A DNA stretch of 39,043 bases from a virus, in IMG/VR virus record IMGVR_UViG_3300026947_000038, positions 1 to 39,043 of that record, one strand, 5' to 3'. The first letter of the stretch is position 1. Each line of letters begins with the position of its first letter. The translations under genes and the position numbers were made by a program. Below the pieces are notes generated by a model that saw nothing but the letters and a program-made list of their open reading frames with translations, made no database searches and was not told the origin of the DNA. This document shows positions 18,022 through 36,078 of this stretch, in pieces.

Positions 18022-18037
18022 GTTGAAAGCCTTGCCC

Positions 18038-18080
18038 GAAACCCCGTATTAATCCAGATTTTCAGTATGAAATAATTTCG
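18038..18080 (+). promoter_or_regulatory. Late promoter, copy 1 (protease-capsid operon)
   Basis: GAAACCCCGTATTAAT at 18038-18053, then 20 nt after the core a -7-like box TAATTTCG at 18073-18080, then the protease ATG at 18093. It is one of four copies with the same 14-bp core and spacing. It lies back to back with the minus-strand TATATTTG box of the candidate small RNA. Confidence 0.65.
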
Positions 18081-18092
18081 TGTATTCTAAAA

Positions 18093-19559
18093 ATGCACGA
18101 ACTGTTCAAATACCGTAGCTGGGCAATCTCTAGGAGCTATTTCAACCATCACTTTCCTGTGATAACGAATGCGCTGCTTAACGGCCATAGCTTGGACCAT
18201 TTCATTCGCAAAAAATCCCTTGAAGATTTCGAGCCGACTTTAATGGCATTGCTCTCGCATCAAGCTGACCAAGGAGTGAGCATTACTTTCAGTAAGGATG
18301 CTGCTTCAGGGATGCTAGTTGCAAAAGTCGGCAGCAAGAACATTGCCGTCATTCCGATGATCGGTCCCCTCACCAAATATGGGGATTTGTGCTCGATGGG
18401 TATGCAAGGATACCAGGCGCTGCTCGCGCAGGTAAATGCAAATCCCAACATTGATGCAACACTTTACGTGGCCGATACTCCAGGCGGAACCGTGGACGGA
18501 ACACCTGAATTCGGTCTTGCCATAGCGAACAGCAAAAAGCCCGTTGGGTTTTTCACTGACAACATGCTTGCAAGCGCAGGTTATTGGTTGGCCAGTCAAT
18601 CGGACGTCATAGTGGGGAACAAGAATAATCCTACCGAAGTCGGTAGCATCGGAGTATTGATGGCTGTGCCCAACTATCAGAACATGATGAAGGCTGGCCA
18701 GTTCCCCGAAGTGACGATTTTCCGCGCAGACCAGAGCACTGACAAAGCACAGTTGAATAGCATTGAGCCGATTTCTGACGGAGCAAAAGCAGATCTCCAG
18801 TCAGGGCTTAACGATACGGCAGATTCTTTCATCGATACGGTGAAGCAAGGCAGAGGTGAAAAACTGGATCTTACCACGAAAGGATTGTTCACTGGCGCCA
18901 TGTTCAATGTGAACGATGCGAAGAAAGCAGGATTGATCGATTCAGTCGGCACCCTCCAGACAGCACTTAGCAAACTGGCAGAGCTCGCGCGAAATGGCGA
19001 CAAGCAGAAGCCATCTTATCAAGGCACTAATTCAAATGCAAATACAATGAAGTTTTCCAAACTCAGCTCTCTATTCGGCTTTGGTAAGTCGAAAGAGGCA
19101 AAAGAGTTCGTCATGAAGATGACAAACTCCGAAGGCCTTCAGAGCGAAGACACCGCTTCCCTTGAAGCAGCCGAAAAAGCGCTCGCTGATAAGGAAACGG
19201 AGGTCACGCAACTGAAAGAGGCCAACGAGCAGAAGCAAACAAAGATTGCTTCACTCGAGCAAAACGTTACTGAGCTACAGGCTCAGGTGAAATCCATTCA
19301 AGAAGAGAACACGAAGGCTGTTGCTTCATTGAATGAGAAAGTGGCTTCTCTTGAAAAAGAGAACAAAGAGCAAAAAGAAAAACTCGAAAAGAAGCCCACA
19401 GGTCAAGCCACTACGGTGATCGCCAAAGAAGAAAAAGAATCAACCGTCAATGGTGATCCTTCTGAAGTGAAGAAGAAGATGGATCAGTATATGACTTCTG
19501 TCGATGAAACTGTAGCTCAGATCCGAAAACAAAAAGAAACATCATCTCAAATCAAATAA
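18093..19559 (+). CDS. Head maturation protease (S49/SppA-like) fused to scaffold
   Basis: A 488-aa protein. Residues 75-290 form an S49 peptidase with TPGGTV (129-134) and the nucleophile Ser161 in LASAGYW, plus EVGSIGV (182-188). Residues 325-488 are a charged coiled coil (long Lys/Glu/Gln/Ala runs) typical of a capsid scaffold. An in-frame ATG at 19047 (Met319, MKFSKLSSLFGFG) could start a separate scaffold protein of 170 aa, as Nu3 lies inside lambda gene C. It is directly upstream of the capsid gene and first in a late operon. Confidence 0.85.
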   Translation: MHELFKYRSWAISRSYFNHHFPVITNALLNGHSLDHFIRKKSLEDFEPTLMALLSHQADQGVSITFSKDAASGMLVAKVGSKNIAVIPMIGPLTKYGDLCSMGMQGYQALLAQVNANPNIDATLYVADTPGGTVDGTPEFGLAIANSKKPVGFFTDNMLASAGYWLASQSDVIVGNKNNPTEVGSIGVLMAVPNYQNMMKAGQFPEVTIFRADQSTDKAQLNSIEPISDGAKADLQSGLNDTADSFIDTVKQGRGEKLDLTTKGLFTGAMFNVNDAKKAGLIDSVGTLQTALSKLAELARNGDKQKPSYQGTNSNANTMKFSKLSSLFGFGKSKEAKEFVMKMTNSEGLQSEDTASLEAAEKALADKETEVTQLKEANEQKQTKIASLEQNVTELQAQVKSIQEENTKAVASLNEKVASLEKENKEQKEKLEKKPTGQATTVIAKEEKESTVNGDPSEVKKKMDQYMTSVDETVAQIRKQKETSSQIK

Positions 19560-19562
19560 AAA

Positions 19563-20813
19563 ATGAAAAAGCTCCTTGGAGTAGGTTTACTTTTTTTGTT
19601 GTCAGCGCTTAGCGCTGTTACAGCAAGCCCTCTGCCCCTTTTGATCCCAATGATCAAACCGCAGAGTTTTTTGCTCGGCATCTCTGATGCCGACCTCACC
19701 GCTATCACAGGGTATGCCGCCAATAATCAGGCTATGATCATAGCCTCGCTTATCAACTCACTGGACATCGGCAATGACGTGATGGTGCTGCCAGGCGTGA
19801 AGAATAAGATCCCGATGCCCAAGCTTACGGTTGGAAAAGGATTCCGTCCTTTCAGTGCCACTCAGCAATTCAAAACAGGCCAGTTGAAATACACGGATCG
19901 TTATTTGACAGTTTATCCTGGCAAGCGTGAATTGCAGATCAACCCAGAGGATTATGAGAACACCTACCTGGCATGGATGAACTCTGCAGGCTCAAGTGCT
20001 GATAAATCGCAGAATGATATCCCTTATGCTGCATTCATGTGGGATCTCGTAATCCGTCAGTTGTCTGCAGAGATCAATGATGAAACGGCTTATAAAGGTT
20101 TTGACAACACAACAGCAACTGTTTATAACGCTGGATCCACTTACAGCGCGGGTAATATCATTACTTATGCAAGTACAACCAACAACCCCAACAACGTGTT
20201 GGATTATTGGTTGTGTTTGGCAACTACGACAGCAGGTCAAAATCCTGACAATACTCCAGCCAAATGGCAATACGTAAGTGCGCGCGCGGTTGCTCCTGGA
20301 CTTGAGTCTTACATTCTTACGGAAATTTCTGGATCTAACATCTCCCCTGTAGCCACTGGTGCGATCACGGGCACAGCAGGTGTAGCGATCGCGGCTTTTA
20401 CCAAGTTGTTCAGAGCTTTCTCTCCAGCATATAAAAGCAATGGAATCATTATCAGTTGCTCTTATACGGATTACGAATTTCTAATCGATGATTTGCTTGT
20501 TACTTATAGCAAGTATACGCGCGATGACATCAAGGCGCTGCCTTTTATCATGCTGCCAAACAGCAATGCGAAATGTATCGTCAAGCCTGCGTCATGGCTG
20601 GGTCAAAGCCGCAGATTAATAGCGGGTCCTTATTTGCCAAACGATCCAAACGGCCGACACATGAACTTATACATGGGCACGGATTTGCTTTCAGATCTTC
20701 AGAAGATCAGCATCAAGACGCCTGAGTTGTGGAACGTGAACGCAGGGATCAAAGTGCGTCTCGGTTTCCAGATACAAGATGTTACCGCAATTAAAGTAGG
20801 AGACCAATCTTAA
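19563..20813 (+). CDS. Major capsid protein with CBM-like insert
   Basis: A 416-aa protein next to the protease/scaffold; the body (TVGKGFRPFSATQQF..., LFRAFSPAYKSNGI..., YTRDDIKALPFIML) fits an HK97-type capsid. Residues 1-22 look like a signal peptide (KK, hydrophobic core, AVTA/S junction), which is odd for a capsid; Met30 (19650) is an alternative start that removes it. Residues 186-238 (YNAGSTYSAGNIITY..., NPDNTPAKWQYV) match the layout of a chitin-binding/CBM5-12 module and probably protrude from the shell as a surface decoration. Confidence 0.78.
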   Translation: MKKLLGVGLLFLLSALSAVTASPLPLLIPMIKPQSFLLGISDADLTAITGYAANNQAMIIASLINSLDIGNDVMVLPGVKNKIPMPKLTVGKGFRPFSATQQFKTGQLKYTDRYLTVYPGKRELQINPEDYENTYLAWMNSAGSSADKSQNDIPYAAFMWDLVIRQLSAEINDETAYKGFDNTTATVYNAGSTYSAGNIITYASTTNNPNNVLDYWLCLATTTAGQNPDNTPAKWQYVSARAVAPGLESYILTEISGSNISPVATGAITGTAGVAIAAFTKLFRAFSPAYKSNGIIISCSYTDYEFLIDDLLVTYSKYTRDDIKALPFIMLPNSNAKCIVKPASWLGQSRRLIAGPYLPNDPNGRHMNLYMGTDLLSDLQKISIKTPELWNVNAGIKVRLGFQIQDVTAIKVGDQS

Positions 20814-20819
20814 TCCGCC

Positions 20820-21215
20820 ATGAAGGATCCAAAAGATATGACACCGGAAGAGCTGCAAGAAGCGCTTGCAGCTCTTTCAAAAAAGAACGAGGAGTTAGTA
20901 TCAGCCAAAGAAGCCAGCGACAAGAAAGTTGCTGACCTCGCTGATGAAAATTCTACTCTGAAGAAAGAGAAGAAAGCCATCGAGCCAGTCACTTTTGAAG
21001 TGACCAAAGGCGGTACAAGTGGCAAGGGCCATGAATATGAAGCTGGCACCTACGAATTCACGTGCCCCAAGTTCACTTGGGACAATGGTGATGAAATCGA
21101 TGTCCGCGCCATGGCCAATTCCACCGATGAGAAGGAGCGCAACAAGCTCGTCGAGATGGCTAATGAGCTTGTCATGCGCAACTCGGGAATTGTAAGGCTT
21201 CAAACCAAAGACTAA
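20820..21215 (+). CDS. 131-aa virion-associated protein, coiled coil plus beta domain
   Basis: Follows the capsid gene by 6 nt. Residues 1-55 are a coiled coil (ELQEALAALSKKNEELVSAK); residues 58-131 are a small conserved-looking domain (FEVTKGGTSGKGHEYEAGTY, PKFTWDNGDEIDVRAMANST). It could be a head decoration or connector protein. Family not recognised. Confidence 0.6.
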   Translation: MKDPKDMTPEELQEALAALSKKNEELVSAKEASDKKVADLADENSTLKKEKKAIEPVTFEVTKGGTSGKGHEYEAGTYEFTCPKFTWDNGDEIDVRAMANSTDEKERNKLVEMANELVMRNSGIVRLQTKD

Positions 21216-21221
21216 AAGCCC

Positions 21222-21776
21222 ATGAATGATTTGCTCTATACGCCAGGAGCCGATAACCTGGCAGGCCTGGTAGATCAGATCTACCTGTGCCCTGTTTCCC
21301 AGATCGCTTCGTTGCCTGCATTGCAGGCAGCAACCAGCATCAAGACAGCGGCCACTGCTATCACTTGCACTACCGGCAACAATTTCAAGAGGCTGTATTT
21401 CACTGATGAGACAGCAAAGGTTGAAACGAAATCCGTTGGTCCACGTGATGGCAAAGCAAGGGAAACAACACTCACATGCCGTTACCCGAAAATCGGAACG
21501 GCACTCGAAGATGCGATACGACAATACCAGAACACTCCCGTTGTGATCATTTACAAGAATGCCGCTGACGGAAAATTGTATCTGCTTGGTGTTTCGCAAT
21601 TGGATATCACCAACACAACTTTGAGCACTGCTATCCCTTGCAATTTCGAGAGTGCTGATGCATCAACAGGTGAAAAGCGTGCCGACCAAAACGGGGCGAT
21701 GTTCACTTGGAAATTCACAAGTGTACACGGTCCTGTCGAATATGCCAGCACTATACCTTTAACCCCTGCTCCATAA
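21222..21776 (+). CDS. 184-aa putative virion beta-sandwich protein (tail-tube-like)
   Basis: Strand-rich protein (FKRLYFTDETAKVETKSVG, ARETTLTCRYPKIG, VVIIYKNAADGKLYLLG, FTWKFTSVHGPVEYAS) in the style of phage tail-tube or similar beta-sandwich virion proteins. It lies between capsid and portal genes, where a tube or decoration protein would be plausible. The stop codon overlaps the next ATG. Confidence 0.5.
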   Translation: MNDLLYTPGADNLAGLVDQIYLCPVSQIASLPALQAATSIKTAATAITCTTGNNFKRLYFTDETAKVETKSVGPRDGKARETTLTCRYPKIGTALEDAIRQYQNTPVVIIYKNAADGKLYLLGVSQLDITNTTLSTAIPCNFESADASTGEKRADQNGAMFTWKFTSVHGPVEYASTIPLTPAP

Positions 21777-21973
21777 TGCCTAAGACCAATACCAATTCTG
21801 TCCAGGCCACCGTTTTGCCCAAGGAAGTTGCCGAGCAATTTGAGATTGCAGAAGGCGTCCTGGCTCAATTTGTTTGCGGTGAGTTTGGACAGATTGATTT
21901 GACGAAGATCAATCTTGAATTGGCCAGCCGACTGGCCGAAAAAGGATATCTTCTTAAAAAGAAACTGGTTTAA
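21776..21973 (+). CDS. 65-aa hypothetical protein
   Basis: ATG at 21776 shares bases with the preceding stop (TAATG). Mostly helical and mildly acidic (LPKEVAEQFEIAEGVLAQF), ending with a basic KKKLV. It is the last gene before a strong terminator. An earlier in-frame start at 21707 lies inside the upstream gene and is less likely. Confidence 0.55.
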   Translation: MPKTNTNSVQATVLPKEVAEQFEIAEGVLAQFVCGEFGQIDLTKINLELASRLAEKGYLLKKKLV

Positions 21974-22002
21974 AAATCAGGTTCAGGTTTGTTTTTTGGG
22001 GT

Positions 22003-22034
22003 AAAGCCACCGTTCCCAAACGGTGGCTTTTTTA
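22003..22034 (+). terminator. Rho-independent terminator after capsid operon
   Basis: AAAGCCACCGTT (22003-22014) pairs perfectly with AACGGTGGCTTT (22019-22030) around a CCCA loop, followed by a T-rich run (TTTTTTATT). It ends the operon that starts at late promoter copy 1 and lies directly upstream of copy 2. Confidence 0.9.
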
Positions 22035-22036
22035 TT

Positions 22037-22080
22037 GAAACCCCGTATTAATTCACTCGAAGATATTCAATCGAAATTTG
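22037..22080 (+). promoter_or_regulatory. Late promoter, copy 2 (portal operon)
   Basis: GAAACCCCGTATTAAT at 22037-22052, then 21 nt after the core the -7-like box GAAATTTG (22073-22080). The ATG of the next gene is only 4 nt after the box, so the transcript is probably leaderless. Confidence 0.65.
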
Positions 22081-22084
22081 GTCC

Positions 22085-22408
22085 ATGCAAATTGACATTG
22101 GAAGTGTGCTCACCAAGTTCGATGACACGTATGATGACGTGTCAATGAACGTGAAGGAGTACGGCATCCGCTTCATCACTTCCGATGGCAGGGTGCGTAC
22201 CATGCGCTGCCGTAAGAACGTGACCACTCCAAAGGTCAAGCTTCGAAAGCCGTTATCATCGACAGGGCGCACGATGTTCCATCTCAAGCGCAACGGTACA
22301 ATGCTGGTGCATGATCTGGATATCGATCAGCCGCGCACGGTGAAAGTTTTTTCGATCAGTCATTTCAGGGACTTCAACGAAACCGAATGGGCGACAGTGC
22401 GACATTAG
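22085..22408 (+). CDS. 107-aa hypothetical protein, first gene of portal operon
   Basis: Beta-rich protein (VSMNVKEYGIRFITSDGRVR, RTMFHLKRNGTMLVHDLD) that could be a small connector or accessory head protein. Its mRNA is predicted leaderless from late promoter copy 2. It overlaps the portal gene by 22 nt. No family recognised. Confidence 0.6.
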   Translation: MQIDIGSVLTKFDDTYDDVSMNVKEYGIRFITSDGRVRTMRCRKNVTTPKVKLRKPLSSTGRTMFHLKRNGTMLVHDLDIDQPRTVKVFSISHFRDFNETEWATVRH

Positions 22409-23763
22409 ATAAGCCATTGAAAAAAATCAGCAATGTCGATAATGGCGACTGGTTGGGAGATGCTCATTGGAGCAATCTGACTGGCGGCATTTATGAAACC
22501 ACCAAGGCAGAGGTAGAACCTGATGCGGTGCTGCCCAATGTACGCGCCACTAATTTCAAATGGGCTCGGTGGGGGCACGACAACGACTATCCGCAGCGGT
22601 TGATCGATGTGGTGAAATCAGATCCAGTGGCCGCTTTGATCGAGAAGAAAATTTTTTTCCATTGGGGCAAAGGATTGTATTTCTACAACAAAACTGTTGA
22701 CGATAAAGGTAATGAGAAGATCACCGTAGTGCCCGATGAAAAAGTACCCCAAGAGATCAAGGACTTTATGTTCGAGAACGACTGGCCGAATTTCATGCAG
22801 GGAATCATCAGCGATTATGAATGGTGGCACTGTTTTTTTGTTCAATACATCACAAGTGCCACAGGCAAAGTATTGCAAGTGAAATGGCAACGGGCCAAGA
22901 ATGTGCGGCCCGAGTTGCGCGATATCAACACAGGTGAAGAGAAAAATTACTACTTGAGTGGAATGTGGCCTTATCCACGCATTGAACAATATATTTCGGT
23001 GCCTGCGTTCGATTTGAAGACAAAGGAAAGCGGCATCAAGCGCCATCAATTTGTCAGTATCGATAAGGATTATTTTCCGGATCCTGCGTGGCACAGCATC
23101 ACCAAATGGCTTTATATCTCGGCCAAAATCCCGAGGTGGATCCTCGCGAACATCGACAATGCGATGAACATCAAATACCATGTGAAGATCCCGATGAAAT
23201 ATTTCCTGGATCGCCATCCAGAGGAAGCCTACCTGAACAAAACGGAGGCCGATCGCAAAAAGGCAATTCAGGATGACATGGCAGATACTTTCAAGAAAAT
23301 GGATCTGTTCCTGTCAGGTGCGAAAAACGTGAGCAAGGCTTTTTACAGTGTGTTCGCTGTTGACGATAACGGAGAAGCCATGCCTGGCTGGGAGATCACC
23401 GTACTTGACAATAAGATCAACGATGAAGCCTGGTTAAAGGCTGCAGGAACTGCATCGATGTATACCGTGAGTGGAACAGGTTTGAGCCCTTCGATCGCAG
23501 GATCCATTTTGCCCAATGGGCTTGGCTCAGGAAGCGGCAGCGATTTGCGTGAACAGTTCAACTATTATATCCAAGTAAATACTTCCATCCCAAGACAGAC
23601 CACACTCGAGCCCTGGGAGATCATCAAGAAACTGAACGGCTGGGATCCCAATCTGCATCTAGGGTACAAAGACATTGTGCTCCAATCAGTGGACCAAAAT
23701 CCTAACGGATTCAAGATGGGCAACCAAAGCAATCCCACAGGGCAACCACCAACCGCAAACTGA
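22387..23763 (+). CDS. Portal protein
   Basis: A 458-aa protein of portal size and layout: N-terminal arm (WARWGHDNDYPQRLIDVVKS), clip/stem region with helices (IPRWILANIDNAMNIKYHV; KTEADRKKAIQDDMADTFKK), and a C-terminal region with 'SGSDLREQFNYYIQVN' typical of phage connectors. It would form the dodecameric ring at the capsid vertex. It is followed directly by the head-tail adaptor. Confidence 0.78.
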   Translation: MGDSATLDKPLKKISNVDNGDWLGDAHWSNLTGGIYETTKAEVEPDAVLPNVRATNFKWARWGHDNDYPQRLIDVVKSDPVAALIEKKIFFHWGKGLYFYNKTVDDKGNEKITVVPDEKVPQEIKDFMFENDWPNFMQGIISDYEWWHCFFVQYITSATGKVLQVKWQRAKNVRPELRDINTGEEKNYYLSGMWPYPRIEQYISVPAFDLKTKESGIKRHQFVSIDKDYFPDPAWHSITKWLYISAKIPRWILANIDNAMNIKYHVKIPMKYFLDRHPEEAYLNKTEADRKKAIQDDMADTFKKMDLFLSGAKNVSKAFYSVFAVDDNGEAMPGWEITVLDNKINDEAWLKAAGTASMYTVSGTGLSPSIAGSILPNGLGSGSGSDLREQFNYYIQVNTSIPRQTTLEPWEIIKKLNGWDPNLHLGYKDIVLQSVDQNPNGFKMGNQSNPTGQPPTAN

Positions 23764-24971
23764 TGGCACTGATAACAACCATAGCGGAGCTGAAGAAATA
23801 CATTTCGATCGATGATAATGTGAACTTGTCAACGATGCAGCCGTTCATTGACGAGGCCGAGTTGTTGTTCATCGTTGATTTATTGGGCTCTGCGTTCTAT
23901 TCAGAATTTCTTGCTGCCTACACTGCCAACGTTGCAATGACGGGCGACAATGGCAAGCTGCTGCCCTATGTGCAGCGCTGCCTCGCCAATTATACCATCA
24001 TGCAGGCATTGCCACAGCTGGCTACCACGATCGGGGATATGGGTGTGCGTCAGTTCAAAGCGGACAACAGCGATGCGGTACCGCAATGGCTTCTGGAAAA
24101 AAACCAGTTCAACGCGCTGAAGAACGGTGACATCCATGCCGAAAAGCTTTTGGAATTCCTTGAGGCAAACGCCACGCCAAATCCTACCAAAACGATTTGG
24201 GCAAACCTCTTGACGTTCAATCTGGATGGAAGCGGTGACGGATTATACTGCATCCAGACTGATACAGGAAACAAAGTGCGCTATTGGAAAACCTTGATCA
24301 ACGCAAACACTGGCAACCAACCTCCAACGGATCCCAATACCACTTCCGATGCCAACTGGGTCGAAGTACCTGCAGGTATTTATGCCACATGGGCAGCGTC
24401 TTCGGCCAATACGAAAAACAATGGCTACCTGGTACGGAACGCATTGATAGCTTCGAAATACATCGATATTTCACAAAGCAGGAGGATCTTCCTCAAGCTG
24501 CGTCAAAAGTTTCAAGAGATAGAGGCACGGTGGGCTCCGCTCTGGGTAGGTACCGATCAGTACAATGAATTCATCGACCAGATCAAATCCAATTCGGTAT
24601 CGGCCGCCAACCAAAAATTGATCGACAAGATCACGGCCATCGTCTGTAAGATGGGTCTGCACATTCAACTGCCTTTTATTCGAGTCTCCATTCAAAGCGA
24701 TGGACTTTGGCTGTATAGCGAGCCTGCAATGACATTGCGCGACCGTTGGTTCATGGCCGAATCTGAGCAGATCGAGGAGTTGCGCTGTGCGTTAAAAGAC
24801 GGTGAGCTTGGTTACGTGAAGGACCAGGAGGCAATGAGACAGTTCATCATTGCAAACATAAATGACTATCCGAAGATAAAGGAGTCAACTATCTACACGG
24901 TGCAACCTTCCCCAGGTCCTACCTGGACACCGCCCGAAAACCATTGGCATAACAAACATTTTGTTGTATAA
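23763..24971 (+). CDS. Head-tail adaptor-like protein (DUF6712-type) with CBM-like insert
   Basis: Start overlaps the portal stop (TGATG). Residues 1-140 resemble DUF6712-type phage proteins (TTIAELKKYISIDDNVN, FIDEAELLFIVDLLGSAF). Residues 146-202 are a module nearly collinear with one in the fibre: LTFN.DGSG.G..C, TDT.N, R.WKT, QPPT.P and W.EV. The DUF6712-like body resumes afterwards (KYIDISQSRRIFLKLRQKF...). The insert suggests an exposed carbohydrate-binding-like domain on the neck. Confidence 0.7.
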   Translation: MALITTIAELKKYISIDDNVNLSTMQPFIDEAELLFIVDLLGSAFYSEFLAAYTANVAMTGDNGKLLPYVQRCLANYTIMQALPQLATTIGDMGVRQFKADNSDAVPQWLLEKNQFNALKNGDIHAEKLLEFLEANATPNPTKTIWANLLTFNLDGSGDGLYCIQTDTGNKVRYWKTLINANTGNQPPTDPNTTSDANWVEVPAGIYATWAASSANTKNNGYLVRNALIASKYIDISQSRRIFLKLRQKFQEIEARWAPLWVGTDQYNEFIDQIKSNSVSAANQKLIDKITAIVCKMGLHIQLPFIRVSIQSDGLWLYSEPAMTLRDRWFMAESEQIEELRCALKDGELGYVKDQEAMRQFIIANINDYPKIKESTIYTVQPSPGPTWTPPENHWHNKHFVV

Positions 24972-24987
24972 ACTTTTAAGCGAACTG

Positions 24988-25332
24988 ATGAAAAAATTTG
25001 TCTTGTGGGCTTTATCCGTATTGGTAGTATTCTTTTTCGTAAGGGCAACAGTAAAAGATGAGGTAGTGGTAGATGAGCATATCATTCTATGGTTGATCCA
25101 AGCGATCGTAATTCCATGGGCAGTTTATATGACGCTCCAGGTATTCAGTTTGAAAACGAAAGTGGCCGTGCTCGAGACAGAGAACAGAAACCATGTGGAC
25201 GGAGGAAAGAAGCTGGAGCAGAGCATGGAAAAATTTGAGCTTGAGATAAAATCGGAACTCAAAGAGGTGCGTAAGGAGCTGAGGGAAATCCCGCTGCAAT
25301 TGGCAAACATGATGAAGAACAACAAACCTTAG
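24988..25332 (+). CDS. 114-aa two-TM protein with coiled coil (holin-like)
   Basis: The ATG at 24988 gives a protein with TM helices at about 4-20 and 31-52, then a charged coiled coil (ELEIKSELKEVRKELREI-like). Located directly before the CHAP endolysin gene, it may act as a holin or spanin-like lysis protein. An in-frame TTG at 24961 would add 9 residues. Confidence 0.6.
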   Translation: MKKFVLWALSVLVVFFFVRATVKDEVVVDEHIILWLIQAIVIPWAVYMTLQVFSLKTKVAVLETENRNHVDGGKKLEQSMEKFELEIKSELKEVRKELREIPLQLANMMKNNKP

Positions 25333-25338
25333 AGAATC

Positions 25339-25794
25339 ATGAATATCAGAGAACAAATCGTTGCGATCGCGGCTGCAGAGAACGGAGTAAAAGAAAATCC
25401 TCCGGGCAGCAACATGCAAAAGTATGGACTATGGATGGGCTTCAACGGTGTAGCCTGGTGCGACATTTTTGTCAGCTGGGTTTACTGGTTGGTGGGCAAG
25501 CCTCTACAGACTGGTGAATTCGGAAAAGGCAGCGCATCTGTGCCTGCATTTTTCAACAAATTCAAAACGAAGGCAACGCAGGATCCCAAACCTGGTGACA
25601 TTGTTATTTATGACTGGAACGGAGACAAGCTGGGTGATCACATTGGGATCTTCGATTGTTGGATAGAACCTGGCAGGAGCTTCAAAGCATGGGAAGGGAA
25701 TACAAGCACTCAAAACGACAGCAACGGTGGTGAAGTGATGCAACGTCAGCGCTACAAGCAAAGCGTGCTCGCGTTCATCAATCTTTTGGATTGA
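25339..25794 (+). CDS. CHAP-domain endolysin
   Basis: A 151-aa peptidoglycan hydrolase of the CHAP (NlpC/P60-like) type. Catalytic Cys41 lies in AWCDIFVSW and His101 in KLGDHIGIF, with PKPGDIVIYDW between. No signal peptide, so it needs a holin; two holin-like genes flank it (24988 and 26223). It would break cell-wall peptides at the end of the lytic cycle. Confidence 0.85.
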   Translation: MNIREQIVAIAAAENGVKENPPGSNMQKYGLWMGFNGVAWCDIFVSWVYWLVGKPLQTGEFGKGSASVPAFFNKFKTKATQDPKPGDIVIYDWNGDKLGDHIGIFDCWIEPGRSFKAWEGNTSTQNDSNGGEVMQRQRYKQSVLAFINLLD

Positions 25795-25836
25795 AAAATT
25801 AAACGGGGAACAGCGAACTGAACAGTGAATATTTTT

Positions 25837-26067
25837 ATGAGAGCGAAATTTTATGTCCAGTCTGTGAAAGACATGGGCAACAACTACAAAGAAGTAGAGC
25901 TGAGCGCGGTTTATGCGGGTGACAAGAACTCAGAAGATAATCAATTTGCATCGGCCACACCTAGCGGAAGCCTAAAAATGATCATCAGCAATCCGAACGA
26001 GGAAGTACAAAATTTTTTCAAACCGCAGAAGAGCTATTACTTGGATTTCTCTGAGGCGCAAAGCTGA
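25837..26067 (+). CDS. 76-aa hypothetical protein
   Basis: ATG at 25837 preferred over GTG at 25825. Beta-rich small protein (AKFYVQSVKDMGNNYKEVE, SGSLKMIISNPNEEVQNFF). Last gene before a long terminator-like hairpin. Not recognised. Confidence 0.6.
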   Translation: MRAKFYVQSVKDMGNNYKEVELSAVYAGDKNSEDNQFASATPSGSLKMIISNPNEEVQNFFKPQKSYYLDFSEAQS

Positions 26068-26074
26068 TTTGTCT

Positions 26075-26149
26075 AAAAAGGGCTGTAGTTCAGTTCGCAT
26101 AACAATGAGCGATTTTGCAGAAATGCAATTGGCATTCTCAGCCCTTTTT
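26075..26149. terminator. Bidirectional terminator-like hairpin
   Basis: AAAAAGGGCTG (26075-26085) pairs perfectly with CAGCCCTTTTT (26139-26149), and T runs flank it on both strands. The 53-nt apical part contains a smaller stem with a GAAA tetraloop (TTGCA-GAAA-TGCAA). It separates the lysis genes from late promoter copy 3. Confidence 0.7.
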
Positions 26150-26155
26150 TTCTTC

Positions 26156-26198
26156 CAAACCCCGTATTAAAAAAACAAAGGTGACTGGCCGATTTTCG
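26156..26198 (+). promoter_or_regulatory. Late promoter, copy 3 (holin-tail operon)
   Basis: CAAACCCCGTATTAAA at 26156-26171, then 20 nt after the core the box GATTTTCG (26191-26198), directly preceded by GACTGGCC (26183-26190), which copy 4 also has in the same place. The first gene starts at 26223. Confidence 0.65.
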
Positions 26199-26222
26199 GG
26201 GTAAACTAAAATCCGAAAACCA

Positions 26223-27232: not shown

Positions 27233-28001
27233 CATATCGGAATTGTTCCATGATGATTGGCGAAGGATTAATCCCAGGCATCATGCGGAAATCTTTGCAT
27301 TGCAGCAGCAGCTGTCTGTGATGCCAAAAGAACAGGAGCATTATGGGTTTATACTGCTGCGTATCCTTATGTTGCTGAGACGAAAACCATTGTTCATCCG
27401 GAACCTGTTTTTCTTCCGTCTCTCTTATCTGCTGAGCCGTAGAATTTTCATTCTCAGCAATGAGCAGGCCGTTGACATTTACAACGATTTGAAGTTTCTC
27501 AGAGAGCCGTGGCACTTCTTCCCCGAAATAAAAAACCTGGTCAAACCTGACGACTACCTGGCGCAGCACACGTTCGATCATTTCATCTATGCCGATGGCG
27601 AATTCACCAGCTATCTGGTCAACTTCGATGACAAGTACCTTCGCAAGCTGGTGGTGACGCTTTATCGCGAAACCAAGGGAGAGCATTTCTATAGGGACGA
27701 AGTGAACTTCAGAGCGGCAAAGCTCGAGATCAAGGCCTGGCAGCTGCAATTGGTGTTCTTCACTTTTTCGCATGTACGACAGTTCATCGTGAAGCGCTGC
27801 AAAAACCTGTTACCATCGAGGCCTGCAGAAGGCAATGAAAAACCGAAATGCAGCTTTCCCATGTGGGATGATGTAAAACATTCCGCAGTGCGCACGCTTG
27901 TGTTCGGTGATTTCACCGCCATCGGAAGAGCCAATGTTTACGATGTTCTTGATCATTTGGAGAAAATAGCCAAAGAGAAAAAAGAAAATGCCAAAGCTTA
28001 A
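27216..28001 (+). CDS. 261-aa hypothetical tail-operon protein (TTG start, SD present)
   Basis: Start is TTG at 27216, with a GGAGGT about 5 nt upstream (27205-27210), a rare strong Shine-Dalgarno for this phage. The protein has helical segments (FILLRILMLLRRKPLFIRNL) and a C-terminal charged region ending KEKKENAKA. Membrane-like stretches are amphipathic rather than fully hydrophobic. Unknown function; may assist tail assembly. Confidence 0.55.
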   Translation: MKKEYSISELFHDDWRRINPRHHAEIFALQQQLSVMPKEQEHYGFILLRILMLLRRKPLFIRNLFFFRLSYLLSRRIFILSNEQAVDIYNDLKFLREPWHFFPEIKNLVKPDDYLAQHTFDHFIYADGEFTSYLVNFDDKYLRKLVVTLYRETKGEHFYRDEVNFRAAKLEIKAWQLQLVFFTFSHVRQFIVKRCKNLLPSRPAEGNEKPKCSFPMWDDVKHSAVRTLVFGDFTAIGRANVYDVLDHLEKIAKEKKENAKA

Positions 28002-28497
28002 ACTCACTAACCTTTCGGATTATAAGCAATATTGGACCGACATTGCTACCAGCCACAAGCAGATCGATGGATACTACTATGGTGACAAGGATGTGGTCGG
28101 CAATGCGCAGAAGGGTAATGCGTTTGCACGTTTTCTTTGGATAACTCCTTATGAAAACACCAGGTACACGGATGCACTATCCGACAACATTCAAAAGAAA
28201 AAAAAGGCAACCATTGCCTACTTCAAAAAAACGCCTTCCAACAAGTTTACAGATATCGACACGACTTTCCAGGAATGCGAAAGCGTGATCGAGGACATCG
28301 TTTCAAAACTTATCCTTGATAAAAAAGGGCAGGATGTCAACGGGACATGGACGATGGTCACAGTCGATATCAATTCGTTACAGATGGAGCCCGTGGAAGA
28401 GATCTTTGGAAGCAATCATTACATCGGCTGCGAACTGTCGATGGAATTCAGTGACAATACGAATATCTCTTATGATCCAAACAAATGGAATGCTTAA
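27988..28497 (+). CDS. 169-aa putative tail completion/neck protein
   Basis: Beta/alpha protein (YKQYWTDIATSHKQIDGYYY; CELSMEFSDNTNISYDPNKW) overlapping the preceding gene by 14 nt. The end (NISYDPNKWNA) resembles small tail-completion or adaptor proteins of Bacteroidetes phages. Assigned by context and resemblance only. Confidence 0.5.
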   Translation: MPKLKLTNLSDYKQYWTDIATSHKQIDGYYYGDKDVVGNAQKGNAFARFLWITPYENTRYTDALSDNIQKKKKATIAYFKKTPSNKFTDIDTTFQECESVIEDIVSKLILDKKGQDVNGTWTMVTVDINSLQMEPVEEIFGSNHYIGCELSMEFSDNTNISYDPNKWNA

Positions 28498-28500
28498 CCT

Positions 28501-30726
28501 ATGCCTATACAAATTGTAAGTGGTAATCTTAACCTAGTATGTGATTCTGGAAATTTCGAAAGCGACCCAAGCACATGGAACAGCGGTGGGTACAATATTA
28601 TCACTTCTGAATTTTCTTCTTCAAGATCACCAGAAGCATCCACCAAGGATTTAAATTCATTAAAATTATTAGGCAATATCTCCTTTCCTTCTGGAGCGCA
28701 GAACTACAGAGCCCTTAATTACAGTGTATTTCATCCAACGGCAAATAAAAAGTACATATGCTACTGTAATGTAAGAACCCCTTCTTCAAATCAATTTGCT
28801 TCTGATAATTGCAGTATCCATTTAGAGCTAGTTGCTTCAGGTTGGACTGAAATCAGCGCTACTCCAATTTTGATCTCAGATTGTAAAGATACCTGGAAAC
28901 AAGTGGTCGTAATGGTAAGCGCTCCAAGCAGCCCAGCATCAAACGCGTTTCCTAGATTAATGATCTACAAAACCTCTGGGTCAGCAGATGATATCAATTC
29001 AGGTGGAGTACTTTACATAGATCAGTTTGAAATCTATGAATACAACGATGTTGCTGTAGTTAGCAATCTTGATTTCACAACGACCATAACTACCGACAGT
29101 GGTGCAGGTGATGGAAGTATAACGGTAAATGCATCAGGAGGTACAAGCCCTTATCTTTACTCGCTTGGCGGTGTAGCTTGGCAGTCTTCCAATGTATTTA
29201 ACGGGCTGATTGGCGGATATACTTATCAGATCTTTGTCAAGGATGTAACACTGTTTACAGTAAGCAAAACTGTAGCTGTGAATATGGCTGCGCCTCCATT
29301 TAGTTTTACTACCACGGTTACAAATGAAAGCGTGGTGGGAGGTAATGACGGCCAGATTGTGGTAATCGTAACTGGCACTGGAGCTCCATTTCAGTACACA
29401 AAAGATTCAGGATACAATTGGCAAAGTGGCAATGTGTTTTCTGGACTGCCCCCAGGCGATTATAGTGTTTTTGTTAGACCGGCTGGTGATACTAATGTTT
29501 CCCATTGGGTAGGTGCGGTAGTCACTGTTTTGGCCGGATCAGTCTTTTTTTCAAAAACATGGTGGAGTCGAAATCATATCATTCATCAAGCATCAGCTGC
29601 CAGTGGGTGGCAATCGCTCACAAATGTGCGCATGTACAATGACGTGCAGCTGTTCAATCCCGATGACAATTCCTGGTCGAGTATTGGCATGAAGGTGGAT
29701 CTTCCTGTGGATGCCAATGGCAACGTTGTTTTTTACAACAGAAGGGCATTTGACAAGATTCTCGTTGCCAATCCACCGGACAAGCTTGCGCAAAATGTAA
29801 TCAAGCTCACCGATCGCATCCGCTTCTTCAGGAACAATGTAGGCCAGCTCCAGGACACGGATGTGACGCCTGCTTCCACGGTTGCATCGGTGGCAGAGCT
29901 CGTGATGCTTGGAGGTCTGAGCAAATACCAGTGGGCAAAGCTTGGATATCCTGGCGTTTTCGAGCAGAAATTCTTGACATGGGCACCAAAAGTGAAACCC
30001 GTTGACAAGAACCAGGAGGATTACCTCACCTATTTCTCCAACCGCGGAACGCCAATCGTTACACTGAAGCGGAAGTTGATGCTGTATTACGATGACGGAA
30101 CCACCGATACCAAAACGGACGTGCTTGTGAACGGATCCGCGGTGTCGGGAGATCTCTATGAGTTCCGTTCAGGCCCTGTGGGCAGTGGTGCGATCGGCTA
30201 TGCAGCTGCAGCGGGCAAAACTTTGTTGAAGTATGATTTCTCGTTGCTTGACCAATCCGATATAGTGATAAGCGATGTCAGAACGTATGTGCTCGATGCG
30301 GTGAGCCATCCGCGCAAACGTCTGATCATGTTCTTGAATTCGCTCGGAGGTTATGAAGTGCTGCGTTTCACGGGAGCCATCGAGAAAAACGTTGTTGTCA
30401 GCAAGAACGAAGTAGTAAAGTTCCTTCCGTATAATTATTCCGCTACCGATGGCCAGTTTGAAATGAACGATGCCGTGATCCGCGAGAGCGACAATTTGAG
30501 CAGCGGCTATTTCACCGATCAATACGGCAAGGATTGGCTCGACTACATGAAGGATCTGTTATTGAGCAAACGTGTTTTTGATGTGACCAATGGAGATCGT
30601 CTACCGTTGAAAATCCAGCCTGCCACCTATCCCATGGGCGCGGACCAGAACTATGAATATTTCGTGCGCTTTGTCGCTGGCGATGCTTACGAAGATGAAA
30701 ACTACACACCCAGGGTGATATCATGA
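28501..30726 (+). CDS. Tail protein with CBM-like and SprB-like adhesin repeats
   Basis: A 741-aa protein. Residues 10-182 resemble a galactose-binding beta-sandwich (CBM4/9-like) ending LYIDQFEIYE. Residues 191-262 and 268-345 are two SprB-like repeats (TTITTDSGAGDGSITV...SGG.SPY.YS, TTVTNESVVGGNDGQIVV...). The C-terminal 380 residues look like a conserved tail-tip protein (KPVDKNQEDYLTYFSNRG; TDQYGKDWLDYMKDLL). The front half is more AT-rich than the back half, suggesting adhesin-like segments were added to an older tail gene. Likely role: host attachment at the tail tip. Confidence 0.65.
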   Translation: MPIQIVSGNLNLVCDSGNFESDPSTWNSGGYNIITSEFSSSRSPEASTKDLNSLKLLGNISFPSGAQNYRALNYSVFHPTANKKYICYCNVRTPSSNQFASDNCSIHLELVASGWTEISATPILISDCKDTWKQVVVMVSAPSSPASNAFPRLMIYKTSGSADDINSGGVLYIDQFEIYEYNDVAVVSNLDFTTTITTDSGAGDGSITVNASGGTSPYLYSLGGVAWQSSNVFNGLIGGYTYQIFVKDVTLFTVSKTVAVNMAAPPFSFTTTVTNESVVGGNDGQIVVIVTGTGAPFQYTKDSGYNWQSGNVFSGLPPGDYSVFVRPAGDTNVSHWVGAVVTVLAGSVFFSKTWWSRNHIIHQASAASGWQSLTNVRMYNDVQLFNPDDNSWSSIGMKVDLPVDANGNVVFYNRRAFDKILVANPPDKLAQNVIKLTDRIRFFRNNVGQLQDTDVTPASTVASVAELVMLGGLSKYQWAKLGYPGVFEQKFLTWAPKVKPVDKNQEDYLTYFSNRGTPIVTLKRKLMLYYDDGTTDTKTDVLVNGSAVSGDLYEFRSGPVGSGAIGYAAAAGKTLLKYDFSLLDQSDIVISDVRTYVLDAVSHPRKRLIMFLNSLGGYEVLRFTGAIEKNVVVSKNEVVKFLPYNYSATDGQFEMNDAVIRESDNLSSGYFTDQYGKDWLDYMKDLLLSKRVFDVTNGDRLPLKIQPATYPMGADQNYEYFVRFVAGDAYEDENYTPRVIS

Positions 30727-32591
30727 TAGGGATACAATTGGAAGGTGATACGGAATTTTTGGATACTTTGTCTGATACTTCGATAGAGCTGACATTGAAC
30801 AATCCATTGCTGGGCGATGCGGAGAACATAAGTCCTGGATCATATTCAATGCCCTTCAAATTGCCCGCGGCCGATGTAAGCCCAAGCAACGAAGCAAAAC
30901 TGAATCACCCTGCTGTGCTTGAGAACAATGCCGCTTTCCAGATCCAAAAGGCTTCGTTGTTTTATGACGGTGTGCCTTTCAAAAAAGGCAACCTGAAGGT
31001 GAACGCAACGGACGCCAAAAACCTGGACACTTATTTCACTTTCGGATTGAACGCGATCGACCCGAATTTCAAGACGGCAAGGCTGAGGGACATCATGGAT
31101 GAGAATGTGGTGATCGATGCTTCCGTTATCGTCAAAATTATCTATGTCAAAAAAACCGTCAATTCAGGATGGTCTATCACCATCAACGGAAAGAATTATT
31201 CGGGCACTGATGCCTCTGCGATCGCAAGCGCCATCAACAATGATCGTCCCAACTTCAGTCCAGACTCCGCATCCAGAATGGCCCCGTATGCAGATCTTCA
31301 TCTTACAGGAGCAACCCCTGGAGGATTGGCCGCACCTTACATCGGTATAAAATTGAGGCAGCAGACCAGCGTTGTTTCTGGTTTCGATGACGGGGATCCG
31401 AATGACCCTCTTGCGGTGTCGGTGGATGCGAGCGAGACGGCCAACTACCAGTTTGAGAGTTTTGACATGACGGCCTATTACAATGCGTTCAAGACTTTTC
31501 TGTCAGGCTATTTGACGGGAGCTTTCCCCTCCGATAAATACCGCTTCCCCGTGATGTTCAACGCCAATCTTTATGATGGTGTTGATTCGGTGACGAAAAG
31601 CTCCGAAGTGATCAATGCGGTGAGTTCGACAGGACTCCTGGTCAATGACTGGGTCGCCCTGAAAAACCACAATTCGCTTCAACCTGTCGTGCTGTTGAAA
31701 TATGCACTCGACAAGATCGCAGCGCATTTCAATTTTTCTTGGGACGGTGATTTTTACAGTGACGCTGAGCTGCCGAACATGCTCATCGACTCGAGCGTGA
31801 CGCTGGACCTCCCGCAGGATTTCATCGGCAGCAGCAAGTTCGTTTTCTGGCGCAGGGATTTCAATATCAACGAGCTCGTGCCCGATATCACAGTAGTGGA
31901 GCTCCTCAAGGGGCTCGCAAGCAGATACAATCTAGCGGTGTATTTCAACGAGATCACCCAAAAAGTCAGGCTATGCTACAAAGAGAACATTGCCAAGGCA
32001 AGCGTTTACGATGAGATCACTCCGCTCTCCTCTCCTGTCACCAATATCGAAGACCAGCGCGTGACAGGATACACTCTCATCTGCAAGAAAGAAACAACGG
32101 ATCTTTTGTCGACCGTTGATGAAGCCCTTTCGGTCGGTGTTCCGCAGGAAACGATAGAGATCACCTGTGGAAGGTTGCAGACTTCGAATTATCATTTTAC
32201 AGATGGGTTGCTGACGGGACCCCGCACAAGCCGCAAGAACAATGTGCAGGGTTTCGGCCTGCGTGTTTTCCATTTTCTTGGCATGTACAACAACGGTGCA
32301 TTTTCCTATCAGCGTGCCGACATCAATGGAGGCGACTTCTATGAGCCTCTGGCGGATTTCATTTTCAACATCGGCATCTACTCCAAGCGCTATCTCTATT
32401 GGCTCTCGTTCAAAAAGAACTGGAGGCGCGTGACGTTGAATGTCGATTGGCCGGTGCGTATGCTCATGAAATTCGATTGGGGACTGAAGCGTAGGTTTGA
32501 TCGCAGTAATTTTTTGGTCGACTCGATCAAGATCACGATGACCAACAAGAGTGTGCAGGCAAGTGAAGTGACGATGTACACGATGAAATAA
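30723..32591 (+). CDS. 622-aa tail-tip/baseplate protein
   Basis: ATGA-coupled to the adhesin-like tail gene. Long mixed protein starting with a 'PGSYSMPFKLPAADVSPSNE' segment, several beta regions and a C-terminal 'LVDSIKITMTNKSVQASEVT'. Size and place before the tape measure gene fit a tail-tip hub component. Exact family not recognised. Confidence 0.6.
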   Translation: MIGIQLEGDTEFLDTLSDTSIELTLNNPLLGDAENISPGSYSMPFKLPAADVSPSNEAKLNHPAVLENNAAFQIQKASLFYDGVPFKKGNLKVNATDAKNLDTYFTFGLNAIDPNFKTARLRDIMDENVVIDASVIVKIIYVKKTVNSGWSITINGKNYSGTDASAIASAINNDRPNFSPDSASRMAPYADLHLTGATPGGLAAPYIGIKLRQQTSVVSGFDDGDPNDPLAVSVDASETANYQFESFDMTAYYNAFKTFLSGYLTGAFPSDKYRFPVMFNANLYDGVDSVTKSSEVINAVSSTGLLVNDWVALKNHNSLQPVVLLKYALDKIAAHFNFSWDGDFYSDAELPNMLIDSSVTLDLPQDFIGSSKFVFWRRDFNINELVPDITVVELLKGLASRYNLAVYFNEITQKVRLCYKENIAKASVYDEITPLSSPVTNIEDQRVTGYTLICKKETTDLLSTVDEALSVGVPQETIEITCGRLQTSNYHFTDGLLTGPRTSRKNNVQGFGLRVFHFLGMYNNGAFSYQRADINGGDFYEPLADFIFNIGIYSKRYLYWLSFKKNWRRVTLNVDWPVRMLMKFDWGLKRRFDRSNFLVDSIKITMTNKSVQASEVTMYTMK

Positions 32592-32598
32592 AAAAGCG

Positions 32599-33063
32599 AT
32601 GGCAAACTACAGTCCGCGGTTGGTAGACAAGATGAACGAGATAGCACATCGCTATGCGGTGATGATGAGGCAATCGCTTTACACCGTGCTGAAACAATAC
32701 AGCAACACGGGCGAAGGATTGGCAAGTTTGATCGTGGATGTCGTGGACGGTGATGAAAGCAAGTCACCACAGATCAAGATCGCGTTCGAGGACCATTTGA
32801 TTTTCCTGGACAAAAGAAAACTGCAGTGGACCAAGTTGCCCGAGGTTGAAAAACTGATCGCGTGGGCCGAGACAAAGGAAGCGGATCCTAAAAAAGCGAA
32901 GAAGCTTGCCTGGGCTGTGGCGTGGGACAAAAAGAAACACGATACCTGGAAGCGCAGGCCCTGGCGAAAGAAAAGCTTGAGCTCTGTATTGAAGGATATG
33001 AACAAAGTGATAATCGCTGCATTCGACAAAGCGATAGAGGACGATATCGCAGCTGCAGCTTAA
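32599..33063 (+). CDS. 154-aa tail-associated protein
   Basis: A basic protein (KKHDTWKRRPWRKKSLSSVL) with helical ends, 12 nt upstream of the tape measure gene. Resembles small tail-completion or HK97 gp10-like proteins in size and the final helix (MNKVIIAAFDKAIEDDIA). Assignment is positional. Confidence 0.5.
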   Translation: MANYSPRLVDKMNEIAHRYAVMMRQSLYTVLKQYSNTGEGLASLIVDVVDGDESKSPQIKIAFEDHLIFLDKRKLQWTKLPEVEKLIAWAETKEADPKKAKKLAWAVAWDKKKHDTWKRRPWRKKSLSSVLKDMNKVIIAAFDKAIEDDIAAAA

Positions 33064-33075
33064 CAAACAAAGACA

Positions 33076-35439
33076 ATGGCAGAGATCGTAGTAAAACTAG
33101 TGAACGGAGAGCTTGCTGGAAGGACAGCGCAAGAGCTCGCGAAAAATATCAGCGCCTGCACGCAGGAGGCCAAGAAAGCGCAGATCGGTACGCAGGCTTG
33201 GATCGATGCCAACAACAAACTGGCGGATGCAAAGGCGCTTCAAGAGGATTACCAGAACCAACTGAAATCGACAGCTGCGGCCAGCGACAACCTGAAGAAA
33301 TCATTTGGTGGCATCCTCAACCAGATCCCAGGGTTTTCGCAGCTCTCAGGGGCGATGCAGGGCGCGCAGGGAAGTGTCGGAGGATTGACCAGCGGATTCG
33401 GTTTGCTGCGCGGAGCGATTGCGGCCACTGGCATAGGACTGTTGGTCATCGCTGTGAGCACGCTGGTGATGTGGTTCAGCAAAACCGAGACTGGCGGCAA
33501 CGTGCTAGCGGGCGTTTTCCGTGCAGTGGGTCAAGTAGTGAATCTACTGTTCGGAAAGATCATGGATTTCGGCAAGTCATTGTGGGAGGCCATCAACAAT
33601 CCAAAGCAGCTGCTCAACGACCTCGTGCAGTTCCTCGAGGACCAGGTAATCAACCGTTTCAAGGCGTTCGGTGTGGCGTTCGATGCGATCAACAAAATAA
33701 TCCATGGTGATTTCAAGAACGGCTTGAAGCAATTGACCGATGCAGCGGGTATGTGGAGCCTTGGAGTGGCCAACATCACCGACAAGATGACAAAGCTCGG
33801 CAAAGAGGTTGCGGCTGCAGCTGTAGAGGGTTACAATTTCGTGCAGGTGATGGACGATATCGAGGACCGCCAGGCACAGATGGAGATCACCGCCAAGGAA
33901 AACGAGAACCTGGTCAACCAGCTTTTGCTGCAGGCGAAAAACGTGGGAAAAACTTTCGAGGATCGGTTGGCGCTTTTGGACAAAGCGGATGCGATCACGC
34001 GCAAGAGCTACCAGGACCAACTATCGCTTTCAAAGGAGTATGTCGATGCTGTCAATAAAGAGGTTGCAGCTGAGCTCACCAAGCAAGGGCTTGCCGTGAC
34101 GGCCGACAACTACACTGCAGAGCAGCGCGACAAGATCAAGGATGCCACGCTAGCTTATCTCAACCTCAAAGGCCAGGAGATCGACCTCGAGGAGAAGATC
34201 GCCAACCGCAGGGAACAGATCCTTGGCAAACAGGAGAAGGCTGACGAGAAGGCTGCAGCTGCCAGGCAGAAGCAACTGGACGATGAGCTGAAGGCATCGG
34301 AGAATATCGTGGCGCTGAAGGCAGAGAACCAGGAGAAGGGATTGCAGCAGGAGATCGACTCGATCAATTCCGACACGCAGAAGAAAATCGATGCGTTGGT
34401 CGGAAGCCAATCGCAGATAGACGAGCAGCGCGAGCTGCTCGAGGACATTGCCCAGCGGAAGATCCAGGAGATAAAGGACAAGTATGCGAAGGATGCTGCG
34501 AAGAAGCAGTTGGATGATGCCAACAAGGCCAATGATCTGGAATTGGTGACCGAACAAAATGCTTTGACGGAGAGATTCTTGGCTCGACAGATTTCCTACC
34601 AACAATATTTGGATGGGAGCGAAAAAGCGGTCAAGGACAGCGAGCAGAGAAAGTTGAAGATCATCGAAAATTCATTAGGCAGGGAGAGCAAAGAATATCA
34701 AGACCAATACAAAAAAATCCTCGATCAGGAAGCAAAATTCTCCGAAGCCCATCTTAAAAATGTTTTGCAAGCAACGCAAGCGCAAGCAAACATCTTGGGA
34801 AATATTTTCGGGCAGCTTGGGGCCTTGCAACAAGAGGGGACAGAGGAACAGAAAGGTTTCTTGATAGCCCAGGCGACCATGCAAATGATTGCCGGTGCAG
34901 TTGGTGCTTATATGCAAGCCCAAGAGGCTTTTCCACCACCTGTCAGCTACGTAATTGGAGCTATTGCTGCAGCAACCGCAGTGGCAACTGGATTGGCCCA
35001 AATCAATAAAATAAAATCAACGCAAGTACCCAAGGCACAGACAACGCAAAAGCAATTTGCAACAGGTGGTTATACAGGTGAAGGAGGCGTCTATGAACCT
35101 GCTGGAATAGTTCATCGCGGTGAGATAGTTTGGAGCCAGGAGGACGTGGCCAGATTTGGGGGAATTGCTGCAGTTGAATCAATTCGACCTACTTCCTTGG
35201 CTAATTTTGCTGTTGGCGGTCCAGTGAATCCTTATGTCGATAACAGCAGGCCTTCCGTTTCAAGCCACAATGCTCCTCCATCGCCAGTGGCTCCGATCAT
35301 AGATTATGAACGCCTGGCAGCCGAGCTTAACAGGCATGTGGAAAACAAGATCATGAAAATCGAGGTGCACCAGAATCTGCAGGACACGAAAAAAGGACTC
35401 GACACTCTCAGTACAATACAGAATCTGGCTAATGTCTAG
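33076..35439 (+). CDS. Tail length tape measure protein
   Basis: A 787-aa protein with a hydrophobic helix at about 110-134 (IAATGIGLLVIAVSTLVMWF), long charged coiled coils from about 210 to 570, a second hydrophobic region near 595-640 (VSYVIGAIAAATAVATGLAQ), and a Gly-rich end (GGYTGEGGVYEPAGIVHRGE). This is the classical tape measure layout; at about 0.15 nm per residue it predicts a tail of roughly 120 nm. Its 3' end overlaps a convergent minus-strand gene by 11 bp. Confidence 0.88.
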   Translation: MAEIVVKLVNGELAGRTAQELAKNISACTQEAKKAQIGTQAWIDANNKLADAKALQEDYQNQLKSTAAASDNLKKSFGGILNQIPGFSQLSGAMQGAQGSVGGLTSGFGLLRGAIAATGIGLLVIAVSTLVMWFSKTETGGNVLAGVFRAVGQVVNLLFGKIMDFGKSLWEAINNPKQLLNDLVQFLEDQVINRFKAFGVAFDAINKIIHGDFKNGLKQLTDAAGMWSLGVANITDKMTKLGKEVAAAAVEGYNFVQVMDDIEDRQAQMEITAKENENLVNQLLLQAKNVGKTFEDRLALLDKADAITRKSYQDQLSLSKEYVDAVNKEVAAELTKQGLAVTADNYTAEQRDKIKDATLAYLNLKGQEIDLEEKIANRREQILGKQEKADEKAAAARQKQLDDELKASENIVALKAENQEKGLQQEIDSINSDTQKKIDALVGSQSQIDEQRELLEDIAQRKIQEIKDKYAKDAAKKQLDDANKANDLELVTEQNALTERFLARQISYQQYLDGSEKAVKDSEQRKLKIIENSLGRESKEYQDQYKKILDQEAKFSEAHLKNVLQATQAQANILGNIFGQLGALQQEGTEEQKGFLIAQATMQMIAGAVGAYMQAQEAFPPPVSYVIGAIAAATAVATGLAQINKIKSTQVPKAQTTQKQFATGGYTGEGGVYEPAGIVHRGEIVWSQEDVARFGGIAAVESIRPTSLANFAVGGPVNPYVDNSRPSVSSHNAPPSPVAPIIDYERLAAELNRHVENKIMKIEVHQNLQDTKKGLDTLSTIQNLANV

Positions 35440-35989
35440 GTTTTTTCAACCTGCTTCCGGCTTCAATATCGAGTCCAATTCCAATGGTGAAAACAACGGC
35501 TCCTGCTACGGACAATCCTTTTATCGTATCCAAATCAGGGTTTTTTTGACTTGCCAAAAGCAGTGCTGATGCAGTGCAAAGTATAGCGGTCAATTGGAAT
35601 ACTTTTGCTGTAGTCCTGTCCCTTCTGAAACTGTTTATTCTGAGCTCCAGGCTATCGAAACTCTGCCTCAAAAGATCATCTTTGAATTTCGACTCATCAA
35701 TGGACGGTTGAGGTTCGATAGGATCCAGCTCGATTTTTTTGAATGCTATCTTGACGTTCGAATTGGATAGTATGATCATCAGGTTTCTGTATTCATCTTT
35801 ATCATCATCGAACACCACAGAGTCCATGTCATCATAAGAGAGTGTACCTTGCGTTGTTCCCATTGATCTCCCACCTATACCCGTCACTTTTGCAGTAATT
35901 TTTTGGCCATCTTTTTTTGTCACTCTCACCAATTGGGCGTTTGCGATCAACGAGACAGAAATGCTCAGGATAAGGATTGTGTATTTCAT
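35429..35989 (-). CDS. Secreted/membrane cargo protein (moron)
   Basis: The only minus-strand gene in the late region. ATG at 35989 chosen because it gives a clear signal peptide (MKYTILILSISVSLIANAQ); the longer frame lacks one. The body has beta strands (LVRVTKKDGQKITAKVTG; SYDDMDSVVFDDDKDEY) and two C-terminal hydrophobic segments (about 128-147 and 157-174). A weak -7-like AAGATTTG lies upstream near 36021-36028. Likely lysogen-expressed cargo inserted between tape measure and terminase genes. Confidence 0.65.
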   Translation of the reverse strand: MKYTILILSISVSLIANAQLVRVTKKDGQKITAKVTGIGGRSMGTTQGTLSYDDMDSVVFDDDKDEYRNLMIILSNSNVKIAFKKIELDPIEPQPSIDESKFKDDLLRQSFDSLELRINSFRRDRTTAKVFQLTAILCTASALLLASQKNPDLDTIKGLSVAGAVVFTIGIGLDIEAGSRLKKPRH

Positions 35990-36030
35990 GATCTGAAAAT
36001 CATGGAAAAAACATGGAATTGCAAATCTTG

Positions 36031-36074
36031 GAAACCCCGTATTAAATAATGGCCAGATCGACTGGCCATTTTTG
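36031..36074 (+). promoter_or_regulatory. Late promoter, copy 4 with internal palindrome (terminase operon)
   Basis: GAAACCCCGTATTAAA at 36031-36046, box CATTTTTG at 36067-36074. Between them AATGGCCAG (36048-36056) and CTGGCCATT (36062-36070) form a perfect 9-bp inverted repeat around 5 nt that overlaps the -7 box, a possible extra operator. The next ATG (36079) is 4 nt after the box. Confidence 0.65.
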
Positions 36075-36078
36075 CACC

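Follow-up and report, generated by a model that had tools for sequence, protein, structure and literature searches.

A 14-mer, AAACCCCGTATTAA, occurs four times in the window (the whole 39,043-base stretch analysed here, IMG/VR virus record IMGVR_UViG_3300026947_000038), and these four boxes are probably activator sites of late promoters, most likely read by the product of the gene at positions 11766–12233, through which the late operons would be switched on together. Boxes of this kind seem to define a phage late promoter class that is both widespread and new. We lean towards a class that spans Bacteroidota phages, in which GTCCT(A/T) takes the place of the -33 element, undescribed tandem ribbon-helix-helix-like proteins act as activators, the mRNAs are largely leaderless, and the window's box, and presumably its reader too, have been rewritten.

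The phage of the window is temperate, and encodes an integrase, a CI-like repressor, a primase-like gene and a reverse transcriptase, followed by head, portal, lysis, tail and terminase genes. Four late operons lie on the plus strand: the head maturation protease and the next genes (18093–21973); portal-like, endolysin and the next genes (22085–26067); structural genes up to the tail tape measure (26223–35439); and a small membrane-like ORF, the genes at 36111 and 36875 and a terminase large subunit-like gene at 37486–38991 (together 36079–38991). The window also holds a diversity-generating element (8222–10685) with repeats of approximately 124 nt at 8523, 8982 and 9368 (target-like, in genes) and at 9544 (template-like), where several target genes adjoin the template and the reverse transcriptase (9729–10685) lies downstream of the repeats.

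An earlier note on this DNA had reported an identical 14-bp core at 18039, 22038, 26157 and 36032, and exactly these four copies were found, all on the plus strand, with no fifth copy at up to two mismatches on either strand of the window. No other 14-mer in the window is repeated as often as AAACCCCGTATTAA; among order-1 Markov controls (n = 100), the commonest 14-mer had at most two copies in 99 sequences and four copies in one, possibly of low complexity. A three-mismatch match at 12184 is within a gene and was taken as chance. Each copy precedes a late operon on the coding strand. The short intergenic gaps described previously hold for copies 1 to 3 (17883–18093, 21973–22085 and 26067–26223), but the stretch around copy 4, between 35439 and 36079, is also spanned by an opposite-strand ORF (35429–36130). 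The downstream octamers of the form nA(A/T)(A/T)TT(T/C)G, said to follow at 20–21 nt, were confirmed at 20, 21, 20 and 21 nt past the four boxes, and start codons are found 12, 4, 24 and 4 nt past these -7-like octamers.

At site 1, the box (18039–18052) and its -7-like box TAATTTCG (18073–18080) precede the head protease operon, whose start codon is at 18093. The box of site 2 (22038–22051) comes right after a terminator-like hairpin and T-run (22003–22034; z −4.42), and its -7-like box GAAATTTG (22073–22080) leads into the ATG of 22085 and on to the portal gene. At site 3, where a terminator-like hairpin is likewise found upstream, the box (26157–26170) and GATTTTCG (26191–26198) precede 26223, whose small protein product has hydrophobic stretches, and the next genes. 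Site 4 (box 36032–36045; -7-like box CATTTTTG, 36067–36074; ATG at 36079) lies between the tape measure gene and the terminase operon. Here, a terminator-like hairpin (36048–36070; z −3.95) sits between the two elements and its T-run doubles as the -7 box. The hairpin is found at the same place in most relatives (GGCGAC..GTCGCC), so that terminator and promoter seem to have merged into one element (36032–36079). All of these features are on the plus strand, and the boxes of sites 1 and 4 have orthologues in relatives. Because the start codon falls 4 nt past the -7 box, copies 2 and 4 are predicted to give leaderless mRNAs.

Sigma-A promoters of Bacteroidota carry TTTG at -33 and TAnnTTTG at -7 (PMC7366714, PMC9723704). 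In the proposed phage late promoters the -7 box is at the expected place: an nAnnTTTG-like octamer, with variation, lies 20–22 nt from the box in 40/40 aligned sites, with 39 having a spacing of 21 or 22 nt. In contrast, GTCCT(A/T), or AAACCCCGTATTAA in the window, occupies the place of the -33 element, and the TTG of an ordinary -33 element is present in just 3/40 sites. The Flavobacterium sigma-A -7 box spans -12 to -5 (PMC9723704), so with a start codon 4 nt downstream of it the mRNA would begin at that codon. The start codon is 3–5 nt past the -7 box in 21/34 sites, and many late mRNAs are thus predicted to be leaderless; such mRNAs make up 5.5% in F. psychrophilum (PMC9723704), and 5' UTRs shorter than 10 nt about 3.7% in B. 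thetaiotaomicron (PMC7366714). Repeats that are exact, intergenic and in some cases next to hairpins could also be RNA-processing, termination, replication or packaging sites rather than promoters. A fixed distance to a -7 box near the start codon and an orientation that tracks an inverted operon (described below) make this reading extremely improbable.

Relatives of the window comprised phage contigs found by searches with window proteins and a prophage in a Cyclobacteriaceae genome (G011). In nine fully read contigs and the prophage, GTCCTA, then a -7 box, then a start codon are found at matching gene positions, namely site 0 (before 12334), site 1 (18093), site 2 (22085), site 3 (lysis/tail region) and site 4 (after the tape measure gene), with not all contigs spanning every site. 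As an example, contig L122 (record G001) carries ATAACCCGTCCTAA four times. GTCCTA was present in 24/24 upstream regions of the relatives' orthologues of 12334, 18093 and 22085, while the best k-mer not overlapping it, CTTTTT, was present in 8/24. Two further contigs found via the 11766 protein, L165 and L173, have GTCCTA as well, in tandem at site 0; these tandem boxes (L165:2273–2345 and L173:8444–8494) lie about 22 and 45 nt apart and are approximately in phase with the helix. A subgroup of the relatives (G005, G006 and G007) has the module 11766-12334-12951 in inverted orientation, and its boxes are turned around as well.

The search for the motif in related phages that the earlier note had proposed therefore recovered the gene positions and the spacing but not the window's core, since the relatives carry GTCCTA. 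For the same reason, an exact scan of viral contigs with the 14-mer yielded many single, mostly chance matches, and two in L077. Read against the relatives' sequences, the 14-bp core turns out to be the form that a shorter box, GTCCT(A/T), takes in a single phage; this shorter box had been overlooked. The window is the odd member of the group: its box reads GTATTA where relatives have GTCCT(A/T), all four copies are changed in this way, and its operon starting at 12334 is without a box, whereas relatives have one there.

The seven bases immediately before the box were more alike within than between genomes (likeness of 0.59 versus 0.36; 0/2,000 permutations); the outer box flanks were not more alike within than between genomes. 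Likeness before the box within a genome, and not between genomes, suggests a phage-encoded reader, with each phage having its own version of the box. We nonetheless weighed a host alternative sigma factor or other host regulator as the reader, as the -7 element is of the host type and ECF sigma factors are numerous in Bacteroidota (PMC7366714). In the 3.6-Mb genome G011, however, the box plus -7 occurs six times, four of these in one prophage, and is thus nearly confined to the prophage instead of being scattered at random in the host genome, a scatter by which the earlier note's proposal would have been refuted. Together with the co-variation of boxes within each phage, including the change of all four window copies, this makes a host reader very improbable. 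The conserved position, the fixed -7 distance, the scarcity of a -33 TTG, the operon-tied orientation and the near absence from the host chromosome outside the prophage all support the earlier proposal of an activator-type late promoter with the core at the -33 place.

A box adjoining a promoter in a temperate phage with a CI-like repressor might also be an operator, at which a repressor silences late genes in the lysogen. No box was noted at the window's repressor region, however, and the phages Leef_1, 6H and other isolates carry boxes too. Moreover, late promoters without a -33 element should need help rather than silencing, and we consider the operator highly improbable. An activator site is the reading that we retain.

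The best candidate for the activator is the product of 11766–12233 (plus strand; 155 aa; family b), which the earlier note had already suggested testing, which is favoured by co-occurrence with the boxes and for which a structure model was made (mean pLDDT 84). For residues 1–101, the best structural matches of the model were four relaxosome chains, with modest Z scores (5.8–6.4); chain length and entry titles suggest that these chains are TraY. TraY is a relaxosome protein of the F plasmid. The predicted fold weakly resembles a tandem ribbon-helix-helix protein, and the order of strands and helices fits. The candidate differs from TraY-type proteins in that it is without a sequence match to them, has extra C-terminal helices and is found in a phage context. 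Foldseek comparison of the model with the PDB gave no significant match (weak E-values), and the family had no match in Pfam, NCBIfam or PHROGs scans or among PDB sequences. Among predicted viral structures, Leef_1 gp39 was the only strong match. One residue that is otherwise fixed among ten close relatives, a G at the start of a helix, is D44 in the window's protein, and this change might explain the GTATTA box. In three prophages (L228, L238 and L241), a box lies upstream of the candidate's own gene (at 337, 408 and 401, respectively, with each locus oriented on the gene), as in positive autoregulation.

To assess the association independently of the boxes, 14 loci of 11–20 kb (13 new genomes and a neighbour set) were fetched by the 11766 family alone. 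In all 14, the gene strand carried GTCCT(A/T) with a correctly spaced -7 core. The -7 core accompanied 41/80 boxes, compared to 4.3% over all pentamers (background 4–7%), a fraction that is somewhat favourable as the -7 pattern used for the count was written after a first look at the loci. The strand difference (9/72 boxes with a -7 on the opposite strand) and the unguided k-mer counts are independent of the choice of pattern. In unrelated viral contigs, 35/530 boxes had a -7. In the 14 loci, roughly one GTCCT(A/T) in two had no -7 box, as expected for a 6-mer. Few boxes were found 300–600 nt downstream of distant family members, but they were found when 20 kb was scanned. Among whole genomes, the family was present in 54/380 of the order and 9/395 of the class.

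Linkage alone could yield such co-occurrence, and the boxes might be late promoters read by another phage protein, with the 11766-type protein merely linked (e.g., as a head or assembly factor). Consistent with this, boxes but no clear 11766 homologue were found in Cellulophaga phage Ingeline_1 and Bacteroides phage BT-TP2. Conversely, the 11766 family predicted boxes in every one of the 14 loci, distant prophages included, and its predicted fold is DNA-binding-like, while the other conserved early protein, the product of 10910–11353, was not found in the prophages G130 and G067. A different phage reader consequently seems unlikely, and the 11766 family remains our favoured one. The 10910–11353 product itself, a small protein conserved in most close relatives, with a hydrophobic helix and an arginine-rich tail, was rejected as the activator, as both of the prophages in which it was not found have boxes; its model was also poor.

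The boxes extend well beyond the close relatives. GTCCTA boxes and an 11766-type protein are both present in G130 and G067, which are more distant prophages, and an extended profile of the family matched proteins in Polaribacter phage Leef_1 (gp39) and Microcystis phage Mea-Yong924-1, and weakly in Flavobacterium phage 6H. Leef_1 and Mea-Yong924-1 have GTCCTT boxes of their own, with six GTCCTTTT copies in the former and five in the latter, and 6H carries GTCTTAAA boxes. In an unguided k-mer count, GTCCTT ranked first in Ingeline_1 and BT-TP2, where the candidate proteins are not clear homologues of the 11766 family. Mea-Yong924-1 (L187, MZ447863.1) has Bacteroidota-type -7 boxes and shares TTAACACGCTGTCCTT with the Bacteroidota prophage L240 (G494); a bacterium of the Bacteroidota living alongside the cyanobacterium may be its true host. 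A literature search for the box, or for late gene control in Bacteroidota phages, found no description, with most subscription journals outside the search.

We infer the binding, activation, timing and start sites of the late promoters as follows. A phage protein, most likely the 11766–12233 product, would bind the box at about -46 to -33, in place of the host -33 element, and recruit the host sigma-A RNA polymerase. The recruited polymerase would then require the -7 box only and start about 5 nt past it. The four late operons would be switched on together, and several late mRNAs would begin at or near the start codon. If this is true, the short box and a single protein family can each be predicted from the other in phages of marine, freshwater, soil and gut origin, and the pair could serve as a marker for late operons in genomes and an aid to grouping phages and prophages. 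It would also provide a phage-controlled switch for Bacteroides and Flavobacterium, and many late mRNAs would be leaderless, a rare type in these hosts. The window's GTATTA box would be a natural example in which box and reader have both diverged, and could help in the study of changes in DNA-binding specificity.

As in activator-dependent phage late promoters, a common site was found before several late operons, on one strand and at one spacing. Among known systems, the middle promoters of phage T4 combine a MotA box with a -10 element and involve AsiA. The promoters described here are similar in that a phage box stands in for the upstream promoter element, with constant spacing to the -10 or -7 box of the host, but differ in the box, the protein and the host phylum, and in that late genes are concerned and no anti-sigma partner was identified. 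MotA or AsiA homologues were not detected among the window proteins scanned (part of the ORFs, in which divergence could hide them). Phage Mu C and phage P2 Ogr are late activators, and the candidate 11766–12233 product had no Mor/C or Ogr match in Pfam, NCBIfam and PHROGs scans. The arrangement in the window resembles theirs in that one phage activator would serve several late operons via a repeated site, whereas the sequence and the position of the box are different.
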